Source: a virus. From it: DNA of 23,446 nucleotides. Below the pieces are notes generated by a model. It had not been told where the DNA came from, searched no databases, and saw nothing but the letters and a program-made list of their open reading frames with translations. The stretch covers positions 1-23,446 of the IMG/VR virus record IMGVR_UViG_3300012936_000175. One strand, written 5' to 3'. Of the stretch, positions 678 to 16,818 are shown in pieces; the first letter of the stretch is position 1; every line of letters starts with the position of its first letter. Made by a program: the position numbers and the translations under genes.

Positions 678-896
678 ATGTCGTTGGTAAGAAAAATTAG
701 TATAGGTAAAGACTATAAAAATGATGCAATGCACTACTCTGTTGGCCAAGAAGTATATGGCGGACATACAATTTGTGATATTGTTGAAAAAGATGATAAG
801 TTTTCTATTTATATTAAAAAAAATAAAGAAGTATTACCTTGGAAAGATTTTAATAAAAATATGGCTATAGCGGTTGAATATAATTTAGAATATTAA
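678..896 (+). CDS. Conserved 72-residue phage protein, function unknown
   Basis: 72 residues, mainly beta-strand in character: 'MSLVRKISIGKDYKNDAMHY', a 'VGQEVYGG' turn, then alternating hydrophobic strands and 'LPWKDFNKNMAIAVEYNLEY'. The ISIG-DYKN-AMHY opening and W-K-F-N ending look like a small family seen next to terminase genes in Bacteroidota phages (recognised from memory, no function assigned there). Its TAA overlaps the ATG of the next gene by one base (TAATG at 894-898), which suggests translational coupling. No catalytic motif is visible. Confidence 0.75.
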   Translation: MSLVRKISIGKDYKNDAMHYSVGQEVYGGHTICDIVEKDDKFSIYIKKNKEVLPWKDFNKNMAIAVEYNLEY

Positions 897-1498
897 TGCA
901 AAGTATATTTAACTTTATAGTTAAACCTAAAAACGAACGTTACGATAATAAAAAATATATTGATGGTAAAGAATTACTTTTAAATACAGAAATTTTTCAC
1001 CATCAATATGTTAGTCGTACGGGTATAGTTTTAGCTATTCCTAGAGAAAATAATACCAATATAAAAGTTAATGATGAAGTTATTGTTCATCATAATGTTT
1101 TTAGAAGATGGTATGATCAATATGGTAAAGAAAAAAATACAAAAAGTTTTTATAAAGAAAATGAGTATTTTGTTCAACCAGATCAAATATATTTGTATAA
1201 AAGGAATAATAAATGGCATGCGCCAGATGGCTATTGTTTTATAAAACCAATTGTATCTAATGATATATTTTCTAATGAAAAAGAAATACCTTTTAAAGGT
1301 ATTATAAAATATGTTGATAAAAAACTTAAAGATATACAAAAAGAAGATTTAGTTGGTTTTACACCCAGCAGTGAATATGAATTTATTGTTGACGGTGAAA
1401 GATTATATAGAGTATTAACTAATTCAGTATCTATTAAGTATGAACGTCAAGGAAACGAAGAAGAATATAATCCAAGCTGGGCAGAAGGCAGTCGATGA
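896..1498 (+). CDS. Putative co-chaperonin (GroES/Cpn10)-like protein with two barrel-like halves
   Basis: 200 residues. The first half contains 'RTGIVLAIP', then 'IKVNDEVIVHHNVFRRWYD'. This matches the GroES-type beta-barrel pattern (G-V-A-I ... K-V-x-D-x-V). The second half repeats it: 'FKGIIKYVDKKLKDIQKEDL' and then 'VGFTPSSEYEFIVDGERLYR', a second strand-turn-strand barrel. Between them lies a conserved 'EYFVQPDQIYLYKRNNKW' and 'DGYCFIKPI'. GroES family proteins are ~95 residues, so two copies would explain the length. Phage-encoded co-chaperonins (T4 gp31 is the known case) help GroEL fold capsid proteins, which would fit the position beside the head genes. The fold is my inference from pattern; no GroES mobile-loop signature is certain. 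The last 59 bases overlap the next gene in another frame, and the stop is TGA. Confidence 0.6.
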   Translation: MQSIFNFIVKPKNERYDNKKYIDGKELLLNTEIFHHQYVSRTGIVLAIPRENNTNIKVNDEVIVHHNVFRRWYDQYGKEKNTKSFYKENEYFVQPDQIYLYKRNNKWHAPDGYCFIKPIVSNDIFSNEKEIPFKGIIKYVDKKLKDIQKEDLVGFTPSSEYEFIVDGERLYRVLTNSVSIKYERQGNEEEYNPSWAEGSR

Positions 1499-9111: not shown

Positions 9112-9900
9112 ATGGCAAAAAAACAGAAAGCAGCGGTGGCTGCTGAAGAACCAGCAATGGTTACTCCACCAAAAAAACAAAAAAAAGTAGAATATAAAGA
9201 TAGGTTGTACGAATTAATCATTAATGATACGCCTATTACTTATATATTAAATAGTAGAGGAATTTTATATTTTGATAAAGAAAAAGGTTATGAAAGAGAA
9301 ATTAAATATTGTGAAAATCAAAAAACAATATTTGAAGATGAAATGAAAGGTTCTCAAAGATTAACACATATTTCTTTTAGAAATGGAAAACTTTTTGTAC
9401 CAAAAGAAAAACAAACGTTACAAAAATTTCTTGATGTTCATCCAAAAAATGGTGTAGCTTATAAAGAATTTGATGCAGTTCAAATTGCAGAAGATGAATT
9501 AGATGTTATAGAATTAGAAATCGAAGCTTTAACAGCTGCCCAAACTATAGAAATTGACCATGCTGAGGCTATATTAAGGTCTGAGTTAGGAAATAAGGTA
9601 TCTACGATGACGTCTAAAGAGCTTAAAAGAGATTTACTACTATTTGCTAGAAGAAACCCTAATTTGTTCTTAGAATTAGTTAATGATGAAAACATAAATA
9701 TTAGAAACATCGGTATAAAAGCTGTTGAAATGAATATTATAAATTTATCATCGGATCAAAGAACATTTAATTGGGCTTCTACTGGAAGAAAACTTATAAC
9801 AGTTCCATTTGATGAAAACCCATATTCAGCATTAGCTGCTTGGTTTAAAACAGATGAAGGTGTTGAAGTTTTTCAAACAATAGAAAAAAGATTGAAATAA
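9112..9900 (+). CDS. Conserved phage protein after the capsid gene, probable virion/head-accessory protein
   Basis: 262 residues, no recognised function. N-terminal ~30 residues are Lys/Ala/Pro-rich ('MAKKQKAAVAAEEPAMVTPP'), probably flexible. The body starts with strands ('YKDRLYELIINDTPITYILN'), then an 'EREIKYCENQKTIFEDE' segment, a 'FLDVHPKNGVAYKEFD' piece, a helical central part and a conserved end with 'FDENPYSALAAWFKTDEGVE'. I recognise this body as recurring in marine phages beside the capsid gene, without an assigned role (memory). No transmembrane segment or enzyme motif. It is bracketed by two strong hairpins, which suggests its expression level differs from its neighbours. It could be a capsid-associated or neck protein. 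Confidence 0.7.
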   Translation: MAKKQKAAVAAEEPAMVTPPKKQKKVEYKDRLYELIINDTPITYILNSRGILYFDKEKGYEREIKYCENQKTIFEDEMKGSQRLTHISFRNGKLFVPKEKQTLQKFLDVHPKNGVAYKEFDAVQIAEDELDVIELEIEALTAAQTIEIDHAEAILRSELGNKVSTMTSKELKRDLLLFARRNPNLFLELVNDENINIRNIGIKAVEMNIINLSSDQRTFNWASTGRKLITVPFDENPYSALAAWFKTDEGVEVFQTIEKRLK

Positions 9901-9905
9901 TCGTT

Positions 9906-9944
9906 TATAGTGGTTAGGCCGCTATAAGCGGCTTAATCATTATA
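9906..9944 (+). promoter_or_regulatory. Long RNA hairpin between genes (~17-bp stem, 5-base loop)
   Basis: The bases 9906-9922 pair with 9928-9944 around a TATAA loop. The inner stem GCCGC/GCGGC (9918-9922 with 9928-9932) is G+C-rich in an otherwise A/T-rich gap. The outer stem continues through G-T pairs at 9917/9933, 9913/9937 and 9910/9940. Those G-T pairs can form only in the + strand RNA; they would be C-A mismatches in the other strand's RNA. No T run follows (the next bases are AAAAAAATATT up to the ATG at 9957), so it looks less like a classical terminator than a processing, stability or translation-control element. Confidence 0.75.
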
Positions 9945-9956
9945 TAAAAAAATATT

Positions 9957-10709
9957 ATGGCAATATCAGTAAATGCAGTATATAGAACCGTACTTTCAAT
10001 AATGAATAAAGAAGGTAGAGGATATTTAACGCCTGATCAATTTAATAAAATAGGTGCACAAGTACAATTAGACTTACTTGAAAAATCATTTTTTGATTAT
10101 AATAGAGCAATGAACAGGAAAAAAAGTTTTGTTGTAAACGATGAGTATGGGGATTTGCCAAGAAATATAAAAGAAAAGATAGATATACTATCTAAAGAAG
10201 CTACATTAAACATAAGCAATGGTTTATCTACATTACCTGTTGACTTATATAGAATTATAAATATAACATCAGCAAGCAGAACAATTAATCTGCAAGAAGT
10301 TAAAAAATCTGAGTTATCATATATAAATGCTTCAAAATTAACTAAACCTAGTTTAGACTATCCGGTATATTATTTGGAGTCGTCATCTGCTAATACCAGC
10401 AATCAAGAAACGGCTTCTAGTTCTACAATAAATACCAATATAAAATTTTTACCAATTACATTAACATCTGCTCAAATAGACTATGTAAAAATCCCCCAAG
10501 AACCTAAATGGGGCTTTACAAGAACAGATAACAATGCTTACAACTACCAAGCATCAAGTGCTCACGATTTTGAGCTACATAAATCTGAACAAGTTAATTT
10601 AGTTATAAAAATACTTGCGCATGCAGGTGTAATTGTAAAAGATCCTACCTTAATACAAATGGCAGGAAACGAAGAAAATAAAAAAATACAACTTGAAATA
10701 ACTAGATAA
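9957..10709 (+). CDS. Candidate head-tail connector / ring protein
   Basis: 250 residues. A helical N terminus ('AVYRTVLSIMNKEGRGYLTP', then 'QVQLDLLEKSFFDYNRAMNR') is followed by a beta-rich middle ('STLPVDLYRIINITSASR', a '..YPVYYLE' strand, 'PQEPKWGFTR') and a helical end ('FELHKSEQVNLVIKILAHAG'). This mixed layout and size match tail tubular A / ring-type neck proteins of podovirus-like phages. In crAss-like virions several such rings sit between portal and tail. The assignment is from layout and remembered family pattern. Its TAA overlaps the next ATG by one base (TAATGG), implying coupled translation. The leader follows the hairpin at 9906-9944. Confidence 0.65.
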   Translation: MAISVNAVYRTVLSIMNKEGRGYLTPDQFNKIGAQVQLDLLEKSFFDYNRAMNRKKSFVVNDEYGDLPRNIKEKIDILSKEATLNISNGLSTLPVDLYRIINITSASRTINLQEVKKSELSYINASKLTKPSLDYPVYYLESSSANTSNQETASSSTINTNIKFLPITLTSAQIDYVKIPQEPKWGFTRTDNNAYNYQASSAHDFELHKSEQVNLVIKILAHAGVIVKDPTLIQMAGNEENKKIQLEITR

Positions 10710-11806
10710 TGGCATTACTACAAGAAACACAATATCAATATTACGAGTCCAGTCAAGTATTTGTTGCTACAACAAATAATAAAACTCAGTTTACTTTAAC
10801 ATTTGACCCTATACCTTCTGATGCTAATAAATTTTTAGTATTCGTTAATAGTATAGAACAAACATCAGGATTTACTTATGCTAACGGCGTACTGACTTTT
10901 GCTTCAGATTTAAATGTGCAAGATGTAGTTACTGTTGAATTAAAAGATAAAAATTTAGGTAAATATAGATATATAAAATTAAAAGATATTATAAACAACT
11001 ATTTAGTTGCTTATGTTGGTGATGGTAAAATTATTGATAGCGCAAAGAAAACCGATATAATGTTTCATGCAAAACGGGGTATACAAGAATTTAGTTATGA
11101 TATATTAAAGATTGAAAAAATTCAGGAAATAGAAATTGGGCCTAGTTTATCTGTGCCAATGCCACAGGACTATGTTAACTACGCTTGTATTTCTTGGGTT
11201 GATGAATCTGGTATAGAAAGACTAATATACCCAGCTAGATTTAGTTCTAAACCTTCTCATTCATTATTACAGGATGATGATTTTAATTATTTATATGATC
11301 AAGAAGACAACGCTTTAGTTGGAACGTCTGTTACAGATGCTAGATTTAAAGATTTTGATACTACTAAAATTTCAGGTTCTGTTCCAAATTCAAAAATAAA
11401 TCATAGTATATACGATAACGGAGTAGATAGAATGGCTTTTACAGGTGCAAGATATGGTTTAAATCCTGAAACTTCACAGGAAAATGGATATTTTATAATA
11501 GATGAAGCTGGGGGCACTATTAATTTTAGTAGTGATATGGTTAATAGATTGGTTACTTTAAAATATGTTTCAGACGGATTAGGCACTGATGATGAAATGC
11601 AAGTTCATAAATTTGCTGAAGATGCAATATATAAATATATAACTCACGCTATAGCGTCAGCAAAAGCTAACATGCCCGAGTTTATAATTAATAGATTTAG
11701 AAAAGAAAGAAGAGCAGCAATGCGAAATGCTAAATTAAGATTATCAAACTTAAAAATAGAGCAGATGAACCAAGTAATGAAAGGTAAATCTAAACAAATT
11801 AAATAG
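10709..11806 (+). CDS. Candidate neck/tail ring protein with an inserted N-terminal beta domain
   Basis: 365 residues. After 'MALLQETQYQYYES' comes a compact beta domain (residues ~15-86: 'TQFTLTFDPIPSDANKFLVF' to 'VVTVELKDKN') of a type often found in phage tail and fibre proteins. The conserved core then begins: 'YRYIKLKDIINNYLVAYVGD', 'FHAKRGIQEFSYD', 'VPMPQDYVNYACISWVDESG' and, near the end, a helix-rich region with 'HAIASAKANMPEF' and a basic tail. I recall homologues of the core in marine Bacteroidota phages, with or without a beta insertion. A structural ring/stopper role fits the order but is not proved. It ends at TAG; reading through would meet another TAG (11837) and TGA (11849), so TAG is a true stop here. 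Coupled to the gene before it. Confidence 0.65.
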   Translation: MALLQETQYQYYESSQVFVATTNNKTQFTLTFDPIPSDANKFLVFVNSIEQTSGFTYANGVLTFASDLNVQDVVTVELKDKNLGKYRYIKLKDIINNYLVAYVGDGKIIDSAKKTDIMFHAKRGIQEFSYDILKIEKIQEIEIGPSLSVPMPQDYVNYACISWVDESGIERLIYPARFSSKPSHSLLQDDDFNYLYDQEDNALVGTSVTDARFKDFDTTKISGSVPNSKINHSIYDNGVDRMAFTGARYGLNPETSQENGYFIIDEAGGTINFSSDMVNRLVTLKYVSDGLGTDDEMQVHKFAEDAIYKYITHAIASAKANMPEFIINRFRKERRAAMRNAKLRLSNLKIEQMNQVMKGKSKQIK

Positions 11807-11811
11807 TACAT

Positions 11812-14800
11812 ATGCCAGAAGCTAAAAATACCTTTTTAGAAGGTAAAATGAATAAAGACCTTGACGCTCGTTTGTTAAAAAACGGAGAATATTTTGATGC
11901 GCAGAATATCCATATAAGTAAATCTGAAGGTTCTGATGTGGGTACTGTGCAAAATATTTTAGGTAATAAATTAAATTATACAACCGGCGCTTTTAAGCTT
12001 GGGGTAAGAACTATTGACGCTAACGGAAATAATGATTTAGGAATTATTACTACAAATACAACAGACGGAACTAATGCCGCTGGTGCTGGATATAGCGGTG
12101 TGCCTAATGTTACTTCTGGATTTACAACAAACGGTAATGGCGTTGGCGGAAATGTTAATATTATAATAGATGGAGGTACTGTAACTAAAGTTACATTTAG
12201 CGGAACGTCATCTGGATATAAAGTTGGAGATACAATAACAATAAGTAAAGATGTGGGTACCCCTGCAATTGGCGGTTCAACAAGTGTTGTTTTAACATTA
12301 AGAGAAGAAGATTTATTAATTACAGAAGATGTTGGTACTGTTATTGGTTATTTAGCTGATAGTGAAGCAAAAAATGGAATTTATAGAATATATTATTTTG
12401 TAAAAGGTAATACAGGTCATAAAGATAATATATATTATTATGAAGAAGGAACTACCGCGCCTATACCATTAATAAATAATAAAAGTAATTTTTTAAAATT
12501 TAGCTCTGATTTTTTAATAACAGGTATAAATATAATTGATGATTTATTGTTTTGGACTGATAATAAAAATCAACCAAGAAAAATAAATACTGTAACTGCT
12601 AAAGAAGATAATAATTATTATGATAATGAAGATAAAATATCAGTTGCAAAATATTATCCGTATACAGCACCTAAAGTTTTAAGGCAAGTTGCAGGCACAA
12701 ACCATTCTGGTATGCAAAGATTAAAAGTTCAAGCTAAACTAGGAACTGCAATAACTACTGCAACAAAAACTGTAGTAATAAGCTCTACTGCTGTAGATGG
12801 TGATCCAGAGCATAATATTCATGTTGGTCAAGAAATATATAGCGGCTCCACATTTTTAGGTAAAGTAGATGCAGTAAGTGCTGATGGGTTAACGATTACT
12901 TCTGATACAAATATTACAAATATAACTCAAAATACAGTATTAACTTTTTTAAATCAAAATGATAAATTAAGAGATAAGTTTGTTAGGTTTGCATATAGAT
13001 TTAAATTTAAAGATGGCGAGTATTCATTAATATCACCATTTACACAACATTGTTTTATACCTCAAACATATAACGTGGCCTATGCTAGCAATGGCTCAAC
13101 AAAAACCGCTAATTCATCATTACCTACAAATGATGGTATTGGCTTAACAGCTACTCAACGAAAAGAGGCGGCAGAAAGTACAGAATTGGCTAGCTTTATT
13201 AATGACGCTGCGCATGTAAACTTACAAATTGAATTTCCTTCTGACGAGCCTACTAAAGATTTTGAAATTAATAAAATTGAAATATTAATAAAAGAATCTA
13301 ATAGACCTGATATAAAAAGCTTAGCACAATTAGATATAACAGATAGTAGCGTTGGAACGGATAAAATATATGAATATACTTATAAAGGGTCTTTACCTTA
13401 TAAAACATTACCAGAAAGACAATTAACCAGAGTTTATGACAATGTTCCTGTAAAAGCAAAAGCCCAAGAATTAATTGGTAATAGAATTGTTTATGGTAAT
13501 TATCAAGAAAATCCAAATAATAAACCATATAATAGTGATGAGAATTATTCTTTTGATTATCATTTAGGAGTAGGTATTAAAAATGATAGTGAATTTTTAT
13601 TTGATAAACAATATCCTTATCATAGTATTAAAACGAGAAGAACATATCAAGTTGGAATTGTATTAATTGATAGATACGGAAGACAATCGCCAGTATTTTT
13701 ATCTGATGATGTAAATAATTCTATATTAAAAGTAAAAGCAAAAAGCAGTAGCGAAACAGACTCAAATTTTGCTGGTGAGGTAATGGAAATAAGTTTTAAT
13801 AAAAAAATTCCATCATCTGATAGAGATAATAATTCTGTTTTATATAGTTTTAATAATCCAACTGGGTGGTATTCTTATAAGGTTGTTGTAAAACAAAATG
13901 AACAAGAGTATCATAATATATATGCACCAGAAGCTAAAAGTGGAATACCTGACGCTCAAACTCAGTCTGCCCATAGCGCAGTGTTTTTTGATAATGAAGA
14001 TAAAAGAACGTGGCTGGTTTTACACGGAGATAACATAAATAAAGTGCCTAGAGATACAACGCAAGAATCTGTAGACGATAATTCTATATTTCCTACTGAT
14101 GTAAGTTTATTTCCAAAAGTTAATAGTGGTTTAGCAGATATAATGTCTGATTTTCCACTTGTAGATATAATAAGTGTTGGTAAAGCTATAGATCATGGTT
14201 TAGAGTTTTTTATTATTGGTTCTAGTACAACCGGTACCCAAGAAGAAAGCGGCCATACATACCGAACTTTTTATAATTATAAGAAAAATCCATTATTAGC
14301 AGAATTACCAAATGGGTTTGGTGTTACAATTGGCCCTGTTACTGCAAACAACCAATCACCATTAGGAGCCCGTGGAAATACCGGGTTTTCAGTATGGGAA
14401 ACAAAACCATTTGAAAGCTCATTAGATTTATATTATGAAACTGTAACTTGTGGTTTAATATCAACATTAAACACTGAAATATTAGCCGGATCTAGTGCTC
14501 AACCAGCAAGTATAAAATTTGACGATGACTCAACCACTACTTCATTTGCTGAAGGGTTAGACGCAGGTGTAAATGGTCAAGCAATTGGGCCTAATTTAAA
14601 AACACTAGATCAAAATGATAATGCAATTACTAGTGGTTTAACATATTCCATTATAAGCGTATTGGAAGATGGTAACGCCTCGCCTCCTTTGCAAACAACT
14701 GGGGATAGCCATTTTGGTATTTCTGAAGATGGAAATAATTTTAAAATTAAAGTTACTAATAATAAATTTTATCATGGCACATCCGGTCACATATATACAG

Positions 14801-15507
14801 TAAGAGTAAAAGTTGTTAATTCAGCTAATCAATCGGTTGAACAAGATTTTACGGTAAATTTAACAAACTCAGCGCCAGATCTAGTCTTGCCTGCAACCGC
14901 GACTCATACACATTTTAATTCATCGGGTGTAATTTTTAGCCCAACATCAGCGGTAAATGGAAGTTCAGATACAACACAAAATACTATAAACATAACGCAT
15001 AGTATAAAGCAAGTTACATTTGATCCAACAGGAGCTAATGAAACTACAGATACACATAAAAATAAATTTTCTATTAATAGTAATACAGGGGTAGTTAGTG
15101 CTAATAATCATAATTTTCCTGATAGTGAAATTGGAAAAGTTTATAAAATAACTACTGAAATTAATGATAATAGCGGTATTACGCAATCTAATACAGATGA
15201 TGAGTTTTGCGAAGTTACAATAGGTGGATGGTTTTGGGGTAATTATTTATTTGCCAGCGGTGGACAAACGGGTGTTTGTGGCACTATAAATGCTAATTCA
15301 CCTAGACAAGATTTTTATATTAAAAGACCTTCATCAAATAATTCAACAAGCCAAACACCACAAGAAAACGATGAAGTATATTCAAATGCTGCTTTAACAA
15401 CGCCTGTTAATGCTGGTGCTGTTATAACAAATCCAATGTCCGATGGCTTCCATACAATAATAGCCGGCGGTAAAATACAATTTGTTGACCAACCTAATAA
15501 TTGTTAG
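11812..15507 (+). CDS. Large tail protein (muzzle / tail tubular B-like, N-terminal part) with inserted beta modules
   Basis: 1231 residues. Core opening: 'NTFLEGKMNKDLDARLLKNG' then 'YFDAQNIHIS'. Modules seen: (1) residues ~84-165, a Gly-rich 'GAGY...GV...GGTVTKVTF' domain of a type frequent in phage tail proteins; (2) core, 'GIYRIYYFVKGNTGHKDNIY'; (3) ~304-379, a small beta domain with 'VGQEIYSGSTFLGKV'; (4) core, 'RFAYRFKFKDGEYSLISPF' to 'ETKPFESSLDLYYETVTCGL' (862-881); (5) ~890-1136, cadherin-like repeats; (6) C-terminal module from C1156 to the last residue C1231, with 'NDEVYSNAALTTPVNAG'. Core blocks resemble the very large tail nozzle proteins of crAss-like and other podovirus-like phages; the inserts probably face outward and may contact host or stabilise the virion. 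It ends at TAG in the same frame as the next gene, which appears to carry the rest of the core. Confidence 0.75.
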   Translation: MPEAKNTFLEGKMNKDLDARLLKNGEYFDAQNIHISKSEGSDVGTVQNILGNKLNYTTGAFKLGVRTIDANGNNDLGIITTNTTDGTNAAGAGYSGVPNVTSGFTTNGNGVGGNVNIIIDGGTVTKVTFSGTSSGYKVGDTITISKDVGTPAIGGSTSVVLTLREEDLLITEDVGTVIGYLADSEAKNGIYRIYYFVKGNTGHKDNIYYYEEGTTAPIPLINNKSNFLKFSSDFLITGINIIDDLLFWTDNKNQPRKINTVTAKEDNNYYDNEDKISVAKYYPYTAPKVLRQVAGTNHSGMQRLKVQAKLGTAITTATKTVVISSTAVDGDPEHNIHVGQEIYSGSTFLGKVDAVSADGLTITSDTNITNITQNTVLTFLNQNDKLRDKFVRFAYRFKFKDGEYSLISPFTQHCFIPQTYNVAYASNGSTKTANSSLPTNDGIGLTATQRKEAAESTELASFINDAAHVNLQIEFPSDEPTKDFEINKIEILIKESNRPDIKSLAQLDITDSSVGTDKIYEYTYKGSLPYKTLPERQLTRVYDNVPVKAKAQELIGNRIVYGNYQENPNNKPYNSDENYSFDYHLGVGIKNDSEFLFDKQYPYHSIKTRRTYQVGIVLIDRYGRQSPVFLSDDVNNSILKVKAKSSSETDSNFAGEVMEISFNKKIPSSDRDNNSVLYSFNNPTGWYSYKVVVKQNEQEYHNIYAPEAKSGIPDAQTQSAHSAVFFDNEDKRTWLVLHGDNINKVPRDTTQESVDDNSIFPTDVSLFPKVNSGLADIMSDFPLVDIISVGKAIDHGLEFFIIGSSTTGTQEESGHTYRTFYNYKKNPLLAELPNGFGVTIGPVTANNQSPLGARGNTGFSVWETKPFESSLDLYYETVTCGLISTLNTEILAGSSAQPASIKFDDDSTTTSFAEGLDAGVNGQAIGPNLKTLDQNDNAITSGLTYSIISVLEDGNASPPLQTTGDSHFGISEDGNNFKIKVTNNKFYHGTSGHIYTVRVKVVNSANQSVEQDFTVNLTNSAPDLVLPATATHTHFNSSGVIFSPTSAVNGSSDTTQNTINITHSIKQVTFDPTGANETTDTHKNKFSINSNTGVVSANNHNFPDSEIGKVYKITTEINDNSGITQSNTDDEFCEVTIGGWFWGNYLFASGGQTGVCGTINANSPRQDFYIKRPSSNNSTSQTPQENDEVYSNAALTTPVNAGAVITNPMSDGFHTIIAGGKIQFVDQPNNC

Positions 15508-15540
15508 AGAACTCGTAAAATATGTAATAATATAAATATT
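15505..15540 (+). other. In-frame TAG junction between two halves of the tail protein
   Basis: The amber stop at 15505-15507 is followed by eleven sense codons (15508-15540) in the same frame and then the ATG of the next gene; no other stop intervenes. Read-through would give one ~1668-residue protein. Independent initiation is also plausible, because the 33 bases include an A/T-rich leader ('aataatataaatattATGCC') like that of other genes here. Context of the stop is TGT-TAG-AGA. Confidence 0.8.
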
Positions 15541-16818
15541 ATGCCAGAAGTAAAAGAAATAGGTTATTTTAACTCTATATTTATAAAATCTGCTGAATTT
15601 GAAGAAACAAATAATGCTAATCAAAAAAGATTTTATATAGAAGAATCCAGAATAAAAGGTGGATTTAATGAGACTACTATGGATCAAGGAGTTAGAGCGT
15701 ATTTAGTTAATGATGAATATACTGTTGTTAATAGAAAAAATGCAATGATATATTCTGGTATATATAATGCTAAAACTGGTGTTAATGAATTAAATCAATT
15801 TTCTATTGGTGATAACATTACTAAAGCCGTAGATATAACAGACGGTTCAATTCAAAAATTACATGCGGAAGACAGAGAATTATTCATATTACAAGAAGAC
15901 AAATGTAATGCTGCTGGTATAAATAAAGATTTTATATTTACAGCCGAAGGGCAACCATTAAGTACAGCATCGAATATAGTTATAGGTCAAGTAAGAACAT
16001 TTTTAGGTATATATGGAATAAGCACAAACCCTGAAAGTTTTGCAGTTAAAGGTAATAGAAAATATTTTACAGATGAAAAACGTGGGGTTGTTTTAAGGCT
16101 AACAAGAGACGGGTTAACTGAAATATCTAATTATGGTATGAGAGATTACTTCAAAGATAATCTCAAAACAAATACAAATTTAATTGGAATGTACGATAAT
16201 GTAAAAGATCAATACATTCTTCATTTAAAACAAACTGGTAATACTGTTGCATTTGATGAAACATCAAAAGGTTGGACTAGCTTTTATAGTTATTACCCTG
16301 AAAACGGTTTTACTTTAAATAATAAATTTTATACTTTCAATAAAGGTAATATATATGTTCATTATAAAAATACAGATTACAATGTATTTTATGGTCAACC
16401 AGCAGCTGCATCTAGCGTAACCGCAATTATGAATATAGATGGATCAGTTGTTAAAACTTTTAAAACATTAGGTTATGAAGGTACTACAGGTTGGTCTGCT
16501 AATAATATTAAAACAGATTTGGATGAATCTAATCATTCTGATTTAGCAGAAAATATAGCTAAATATGAATATAATTTTGGATATGATAGTAATAATGAAT
16601 TTATAAATATATTACCATCAATGTTTGTAAAAAAAGAAGGTAAGTATTTTTCAGTATTACAAAATGCTTCAATAGATGCTCAAGAAGACGAAATATTATT
16701 TGGAGCAGGAGTATCAGGTGTAAAAGGAATGTATTTACATACTACGCTAGAAACAAAAGAAAATAGTAAACAAGAATTATTTACAATCTTAAGTGAGGTT
16801 GTAATATCATCAAAATAA
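15541..16818 (+). CDS. Tail protein, C-terminal part of the muzzle/tail tubular B-like core
   Basis: 425 residues, almost all beta. It opens with 'MPEVKEIGYFNSIFIKSAEF' and then 'RFYIEESRIKGGFNETTMD', and later shows blade-like blocks: 'LHAEDRELFILQEDK', 'VKGNRKYFTDEKRGVVLRLT', 'DGLTEISNYGMRDYFKD' and 'KGWTSFYSYYPENGFTLNNK'. These look like beta-propeller blades, which form the body of tail tubular B-type nozzle proteins. In homologues as I remember them these blocks lie in the same polypeptide as the preceding ORF's core, so this appears to be its continuation. The same frame and TAG separation support that. It could be translated separately from its own ATG and assemble with the first part. 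Stops with TAA, 6 bases before the next gene. Confidence 0.75.
   Translation: MPEVKEIGYFNSIFIKSAEFEETNNANQKRFYIEESRIKGGFNETTMDQGVRAYLVNDEYTVVNRKNAMIYSGIYNAKTGVNELNQFSIGDNITKAVDITDGSIQKLHAEDRELFILQEDKCNAAGINKDFIFTAEGQPLSTASNIVIGQVRTFLGIYGISTNPESFAVKGNRKYFTDEKRGVVLRLTRDGLTEISNYGMRDYFKDNLKTNTNLIGMYDNVKDQYILHLKQTGNTVAFDETSKGWTSFYSYYPENGFTLNNKFYTFNKGNIYVHYKNTDYNVFYGQPAAASSVTAIMNIDGSVVKTFKTLGYEGTTGWSANNIKTDLDESNHSDLAENIAKYEYNFGYDSNNEFINILPSMFVKKEGKYFSVLQNASIDAQEDEILFGAGVSGVKGMYLHTTLETKENSKQELFTILSEVVISSK

Follow-up and report, generated by a model that had tools for sequence, protein, structure and literature searches.

The crassvirus muzzle is known in structural detail from phage phicrAss001, where each subunit consists of a single chain, gp44 (PDB 7QOK, 7QOL), that comprises a ring-joining domain, a propeller, an IG2 domain, a crass domain and a C-terminal domain. 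In this protein, IG1 spans residues 163-292 and IG2 residues 318-1021, the crass insertions are located at 453-904 and 940-1012, and a gate loop is present in blade 4 (PMC10172136). The length of the muzzle varies within the family as a result of insertions in the crass and IG2 regions, and the nozzle of phage T7 has the same core of ring-joining domain and propeller (PMC10172136). A crass domain is not reported for the nozzles of short-tailed phages (T7; SU10, 7Z4F).

All cultured relatives that were examined encode the muzzle in a single gene, i.e. phi38:1 (gp97), elemoE, phi18:3 (gp114, the product of which was detected by mass spectrometry according to its record), Gundel_1 and phicrAss001 (gp44), and the same holds for the complete environmental genome ctfjg026. 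The cultured relatives closest to the phage described here, with about 32-35% identity in the region of its second muzzle reading frame, are phi38:1 (Callevirus), Elemovirus and phi18:3 (Baltivirus), which have unbroken muzzle genes of 1324, 1470 and 1612 codons, respectively. We know of no split in nozzle proteins of the T7/SU10 type.

A muzzle encoded by two open reading frames

The DNA that was analyzed, a stretch of 23,446 nucleotides (IMG/VR record IMGVR_UViG_3300012936_000175; the window), represents the structural block of a marine crass-like phage, with genes for terminase, portal, head proteins, ring proteins and muzzle. Whereas one polypeptide forms each subunit in the described crassvirus muzzles, two genes are found here (Table 1) and in 79 relatives. 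They directly follow the ring ORFs (9957-10709 and 10709-11806, a label based on position and on comparison with phicrAss001), and this order is also found in phi38:1, phicrAss001, Elemovirus and phi18:3. Elsewhere in the window (896-1498), a 200-aa protein matches phrog_13932, which is annotated as co-chaperonin GroES. The two muzzle ORFs share one frame, and between the TAG that ends ORF1 and the ATG of ORF2 there are 33 nt, i.e. eleven sense codons and no other in-frame stop, exactly as given in the original prediction.

Table 1 Features of the muzzle locus in the window
Feature	Position	Strand	Evidence
ORF1, N-terminal muzzle chain (1231 aa, TAG end) with added C-terminal domain array	11812-15507	+	phrog_14478, hhalign to gp44, AlphaFold2/Foldseek, dN/dS
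ORF2, C-terminal muzzle chain (425 aa, TAA end): end of crass domain, most later propeller blades, C-terminal domain	15541-16818	+	Pfam, hhalign, conserved N-terminus, dN/dS
Added array of tandem cadherin/Ig-like domains, Cys-bounded module last	14446-15504	+	Follows 'LDLYYET'; Foldseek, profile match
TAG stop of ORF1, within first promoter-like block	15505-15507	+	TAA, TGA or displaced in relatives
-35-like block TTAGAG of candidate phage promoter	15504-15509	+	TA at fixed positions -19/-18 across junctions
Conserved element AAAATATGTAATAAT, with -10-like block AATAAT (15526-15531) inside	15517-15531	+	Kept in the junctions of 67 of 79 relatives, at the expected spacing

Both ORFs match phrog_14478 in order, with the best stretches at profile positions 250-354 for ORF1 and 920-1243 for ORF2, and ORF2 scores above the curated Pfam cut-offs (27 bits for both) with the crassvirus muzzle domains crAss_MUZ (PF25731, 44.2 bits) and crAss_MUZ_C (PF25729, 36.3 bits). 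The common PHROG, matched in order, and the muzzle domains of ORF2 thus indicate that the two ORFs belong to one tail protein. A relative with a solved structure did not turn up in plain sequence searches, while profile alignment to gp44 and fold comparison did succeed. The family profile of ORF1 was aligned by hhalign to gp44 residues 7-176 (probability 96.7) and that of ORF2 to residues 1054-1285 (probability 96.8), so that the two ORFs map in order to the two ends of this protein. The AlphaFold2 model of ORF1 (residues 1-1200), which is of fair quality (pLDDT 72, pTM 0.62), matched the solved muzzle (7qok_A, Foldseek prob 1.00, 597 columns) as well as cadherins. Furthermore, ORF1 and ORF2 align in order with the muzzles of phi38:1, Elemovirus and ctfjg026 and are collinear with them across the break. 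The suggestion that the ORFs are the N- and C-terminal parts of one muzzle protein is thereby borne out, also by the proposed alignment to homologues, in which they correspond to one continuous protein.

The overall reading, which we consider quite probable, is that the ORFs specify two chains of one crassvirus-type muzzle subunit after an old gene fission, with most likely a promoter at the cut. The added array runs up to a stop, after which come about 30 nt of intergenic DNA and a new start, and the chains would be translated separately and would then have to fold together. A model of the read-through fusion, made to view the packing of the chains, gave a confidence that is too low for that use (pLDDT 54, pTM 0.32); its best Foldseek matches were again the muzzle and cadherins, and also the tail protein of phage SU10 (7Z4F). 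Since this model is poor, we infer contact between the chains from homology instead of from structure prediction. On this basis it is likely, and we hold this with good confidence, that the two chains fold together in one muzzle subunit. If so, the crassvirus muzzle, a topologically interleaved tail-tip protein, tolerates production as two chains.

Position of the cut and the added array

When extrapolated back from ORF2 residue 93, the cut would fall within the second crass insertion, at about residue 960 of gp44, and according to this mapping the blades that flank IG2 would come from different chains. Placed on gp44, ORF1 would cover the end that joins the ring, the initial propeller blades and the greater part of the crass domain, and ORF2 would contribute the final segment of the crass domain, the rest of the propeller with its gate blade, and the C-terminal domain.

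In most unsplit relatives that were read, the sequence 'LDLYYET' (or its counterpart) is followed by a linker of roughly 20-30 residues and then by WYNCYSFGNGVESDRIRDDFN. This linker is short in phi38:1 and Elemovirus and longer in some relatives, such as L139. In the 14 split ORF1s that were checked, 320-375 residues follow 'LDLYYET' before the stop is reached. The start of split ORF2s, M..E[VI].YFNSF....EESRIKGGFN, is the counterpart of the unsplit WYNCYSFGNGVESDRIRDDFN block, and its first part, M..E[VI].YFNSF, is conserved among the relatives as the ORF2 N-terminus. Thus, as compared to the single chain of gp44, the split phages have two chains, with a cadherin-like array that replaces the linker and a candidate regulatory element in the intergenic stretch.

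The array at the C-terminus of ORF1 is missing from the corresponding place of the unsplit relatives that were read. Its fold is cadherin-like, as indicated by Foldseek matches to cadherins (E about 1e-9) and a profile match to cadherin-23 (E 1.8e-5); when the single sequence was compared with the Pfam cadherin family, the score stayed below the cut-off. The array evolves faster than the rest of the protein, with dN/dS values of 0.20-0.47, compared to 0.09 for the core of ORF1 (against the sister locus L008) and 0.08 for ORF2. We envisage that an array with a Cys-bounded tip was added at the short linker in the distal part of the crass domain, and that the cut left its C-terminus free at the tip of the tail, in probable contact with the surface of the host. 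The cut would then have made room for a variable adhesive array at this position. These observations bear out the original view that the Cys-bounded module ending at C1231 is the genuine end of ORF1, and they support the option, raised at the same time, of a true gene split linked to the addition of a C-terminal module.

In many of the loci L040-L048 and L059-L085, ORF2 is enlarged between YFNSF.LKK and EESRIRGG by an insertion of up to about 130 residues, so that insertion sites occur on both sides of the cut.

The intergenic element as a candidate promoter

Alignment of the junctions revealed the element AAAYAWGTRATWAT, the G of which is mostly located 13-17 nt before the ATG of ORF2. The 12 relatives' junctions without it mostly have short gaps, and their existence implies that the element is not essential to the split. 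Upstream of the element there is a TA block, with T in 55 and A in 54 of 57 distinct junctions at positions -19 and -18 from its G. In many junctions, including that of the window, this block is the stop codon of ORF1 itself. Where the stop is elsewhere (31 junctions), TA is still found at -19 in 26 cases, versus at most 14 at any other position. Since TA is retained where the stop has moved, the block is conserved in its own right, and the position of the TAG would follow from the overlap of the ORF1 stop with the first promoter block. The resulting layout, [TG]TARAA-N16-RATWAT, has the spacing of a two-block promoter, and the predicted start, 7 nt past the second block, coincides with the ATG in most loci; in the window it precedes the ATG of ORF2 by 3 nt.

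A motif was built from the junctions alone and then counted in 11 large records with the junctions masked. In upstream intergenic stretches and in the sense direction, 24 non-junction copies were found, as compared to a mean of 2.8 and a maximum of 18 for 200 column-permuted motifs. At the strictest cut-off the numbers are 7 copies versus a mean of 0.18 and a maximum of 3; with less strict cut-offs, high counts in intergenic DNA are also obtained for some of the permuted motifs. The non-junction copies that were read precede GroEL-like, ERF-like, ring and other genes (names assigned by eye from the sequence), mostly at 20-70 nt from the ATG, and the upstream TA block recurs in them, with a TAT where transcription is predicted to begin. 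Of the 11 large records, 8 contain a gene for a phage sigma factor (phrog_351). The flavobacterial sigma-A consensus TAnnTTTG (PMC9723704) is not matched by the element, and a generic sigma-70 scan of this stretch yielded no more sites than scans of its shuffles. A limited search of the open-access literature found no description of such a promoter element or of a split muzzle.

From these motif statistics we consider it reasonably probable that a phage promoter is present at the cut. It would allow independent transcription of ORF2 and the later genes, and if this is correct, the element is a candidate common promoter of these phages that can be tested directly. The ORF2 mRNA might then start within a few bases of the ATG and be leaderless, which is a speculative prediction; leaderless mRNAs make up 5.5% in F. 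psychrophilum (PMC9723704).

The main rival to promoter function is that the fission is real and the element acts in translation, either in initiation on ORF2 or in coupling to ORF1. The distance from the G of the element to the ATG would suit ribosome binding, and Shine-Dalgarno sites are not used in flavobacteria (PMC9723704, PMC6847099). A translational role is nevertheless rather unlikely, since copies of the element precede other genes at 20-70 nt, in one case followed by a hairpin leader, and since the second block is kept at its fixed spacing 20 nt upstream even where the ORF1 stop has moved. Returning to the promoter, the most complete form of the proposal is an interleaved virion fold, with propeller and crass domain shared by both chains, that is cut into two genes and maintained in this form across a large marine group; at the cut there would be a phage-specific promoter whose -35-like block takes in the stop codon of the first gene, and the ORF2 mRNA, with little or no leader, would start at the AUG. 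We regard this full combination as tentative, and somewhat doubtful in all its parts together.

Some further observations were made on the motif and its surroundings. The GroEL-like genes preceded by the promoter-like motif are those of L090 and L094. A phrog_351 gene is located directly upstream of the ERF-like gene that carries the motif in L124 (2729-3487, minus strand) and L129 (8503-9279, plus strand). In the window, a short G+C-rich hairpin (9901-9956) separates a 262-aa ORF from the first gene for a ring protein and has counterparts in L057 (1578-1640), L060 (1797-1862), L064 (398-460) and L072 (1651-1709) in which the sequence differs and the pairing is preserved; in four of these relatives it is directly 3' of a copy of the motif. 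Perhaps it is a leader hairpin or a terminator. A search of the window against Rfam gave no match to a structured RNA. Two other roles for the junction were considered and rejected: bypassing, in which the ribosome would leave the last Cys codon and land on the TGT of the conserved element, because this last codon is not conserved and stops occur after the supposed landing site in relatives, and start-stop (ATG-TAA) coupling within the element, which is absent in the wider set of junctions.

Distribution of the split among relatives

Among the 83 loci first collected in two IMG/VR scans, 79 have the split, and a further scan added more unsplit members, which belong to a sister group; a scan of genome contigs for relatives found none. 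The unsplit sister-group muzzles of L141, L144, L145 and L159, with about 2780-2830 codons, are the longest of the family in this collection. In the 79 relatives the gap between ORF1 and ORF2 is mostly 29-33 nt. Over the 80 split loci, window included, ORF1 ends with TAA in 50 cases, with TAG in 28 and with TGA in 2. The two ORFs are in different frames in 42 of these loci and in the same frame with 1-5 further in-frame stops in 26, which leaves 12 loci with the same frame and a single stop; only in the window and its sister L008 is this stop a TAG. The frame match is thus nothing special, and the idea that it points to functional continuity finds no support among the relatives.

In a ring-protein tree with 92 rows, those of split loci fell in two groups in a quick search, whereas a tree in which they were held together had a higher likelihood (AU p 0.80). 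A single origin of the fission is therefore compatible with the data, though not proven. Both ORFs are under purifying selection, and it is near certain that the muzzle gene underwent an old and stable fission, which has become fixed in a large marine phage group. In annotation, the muzzle of these crass-like phages will appear as two unrelated genes.

Programmed amber read-through, one of the options originally put forward, would mean that the TAG is sometimes read, giving a rare long muzzle chain beside the short one. Like the read-through coat protein of Qbeta, the window has two parts in the same frame that are separated by a stop codon, and the loci with a single in-frame stop could be taken in the same way. 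Unlike in Qbeta, however, neither the frame nor a leaky stop is conserved across the relatives, most of which have a different frame, additional stops or TAA, and the second part has its own conserved Met start. The local RNA fold is not unusual (z 0.63), the intergenic stretch is conserved as DNA, and ORF2 holds a conserved propeller core that is needed in every subunit, all of which makes read-through very improbable.

Even less credit can be given to suppression of amber codons by the host or phage, or to a code with recoded TAG, which would yield one long protein. Some gut crassviruses do recode TAG (PMC7886860), but in the window the standard code gives uninterrupted genes, which end in TAA, TAG or TGA, TAG also terminates the ring gene at 11806, and relatives have TAA or TGA at the place of the ORF1 stop. 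Neither the window nor the pieces of ten split records yielded a suppressor tRNA, so that the combination of such a tRNA with in-frame TAG in conserved genes, as expected for a recoded crassvirus, is not seen, and the originally suggested amber-suppressing host can be set aside. The possibility of faulty assembly, or of a nonsense mutation that arose recently in one phage, for which nothing but the single stop could be adduced, is practically dismissed by the split in 79 further contigs with both ORFs under purifying selection.

The apparent split in Maribacter phage Panino was rejected as the same event, since it is a frameshift at another place. It occurs at a T run in the C-terminal part (about 9180-9245 of PP540027.1), due to which the muzzle is annotated as two genes, and it is possibly a sequencing error. 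Finally, ORF1 of L065 ends about 200 nt earlier than that of L066 (7438 versus 7644), at a TGA, apparently as the result of a frameshift relative to L066, and despite this early end the promoter-like element of L065 is intact.
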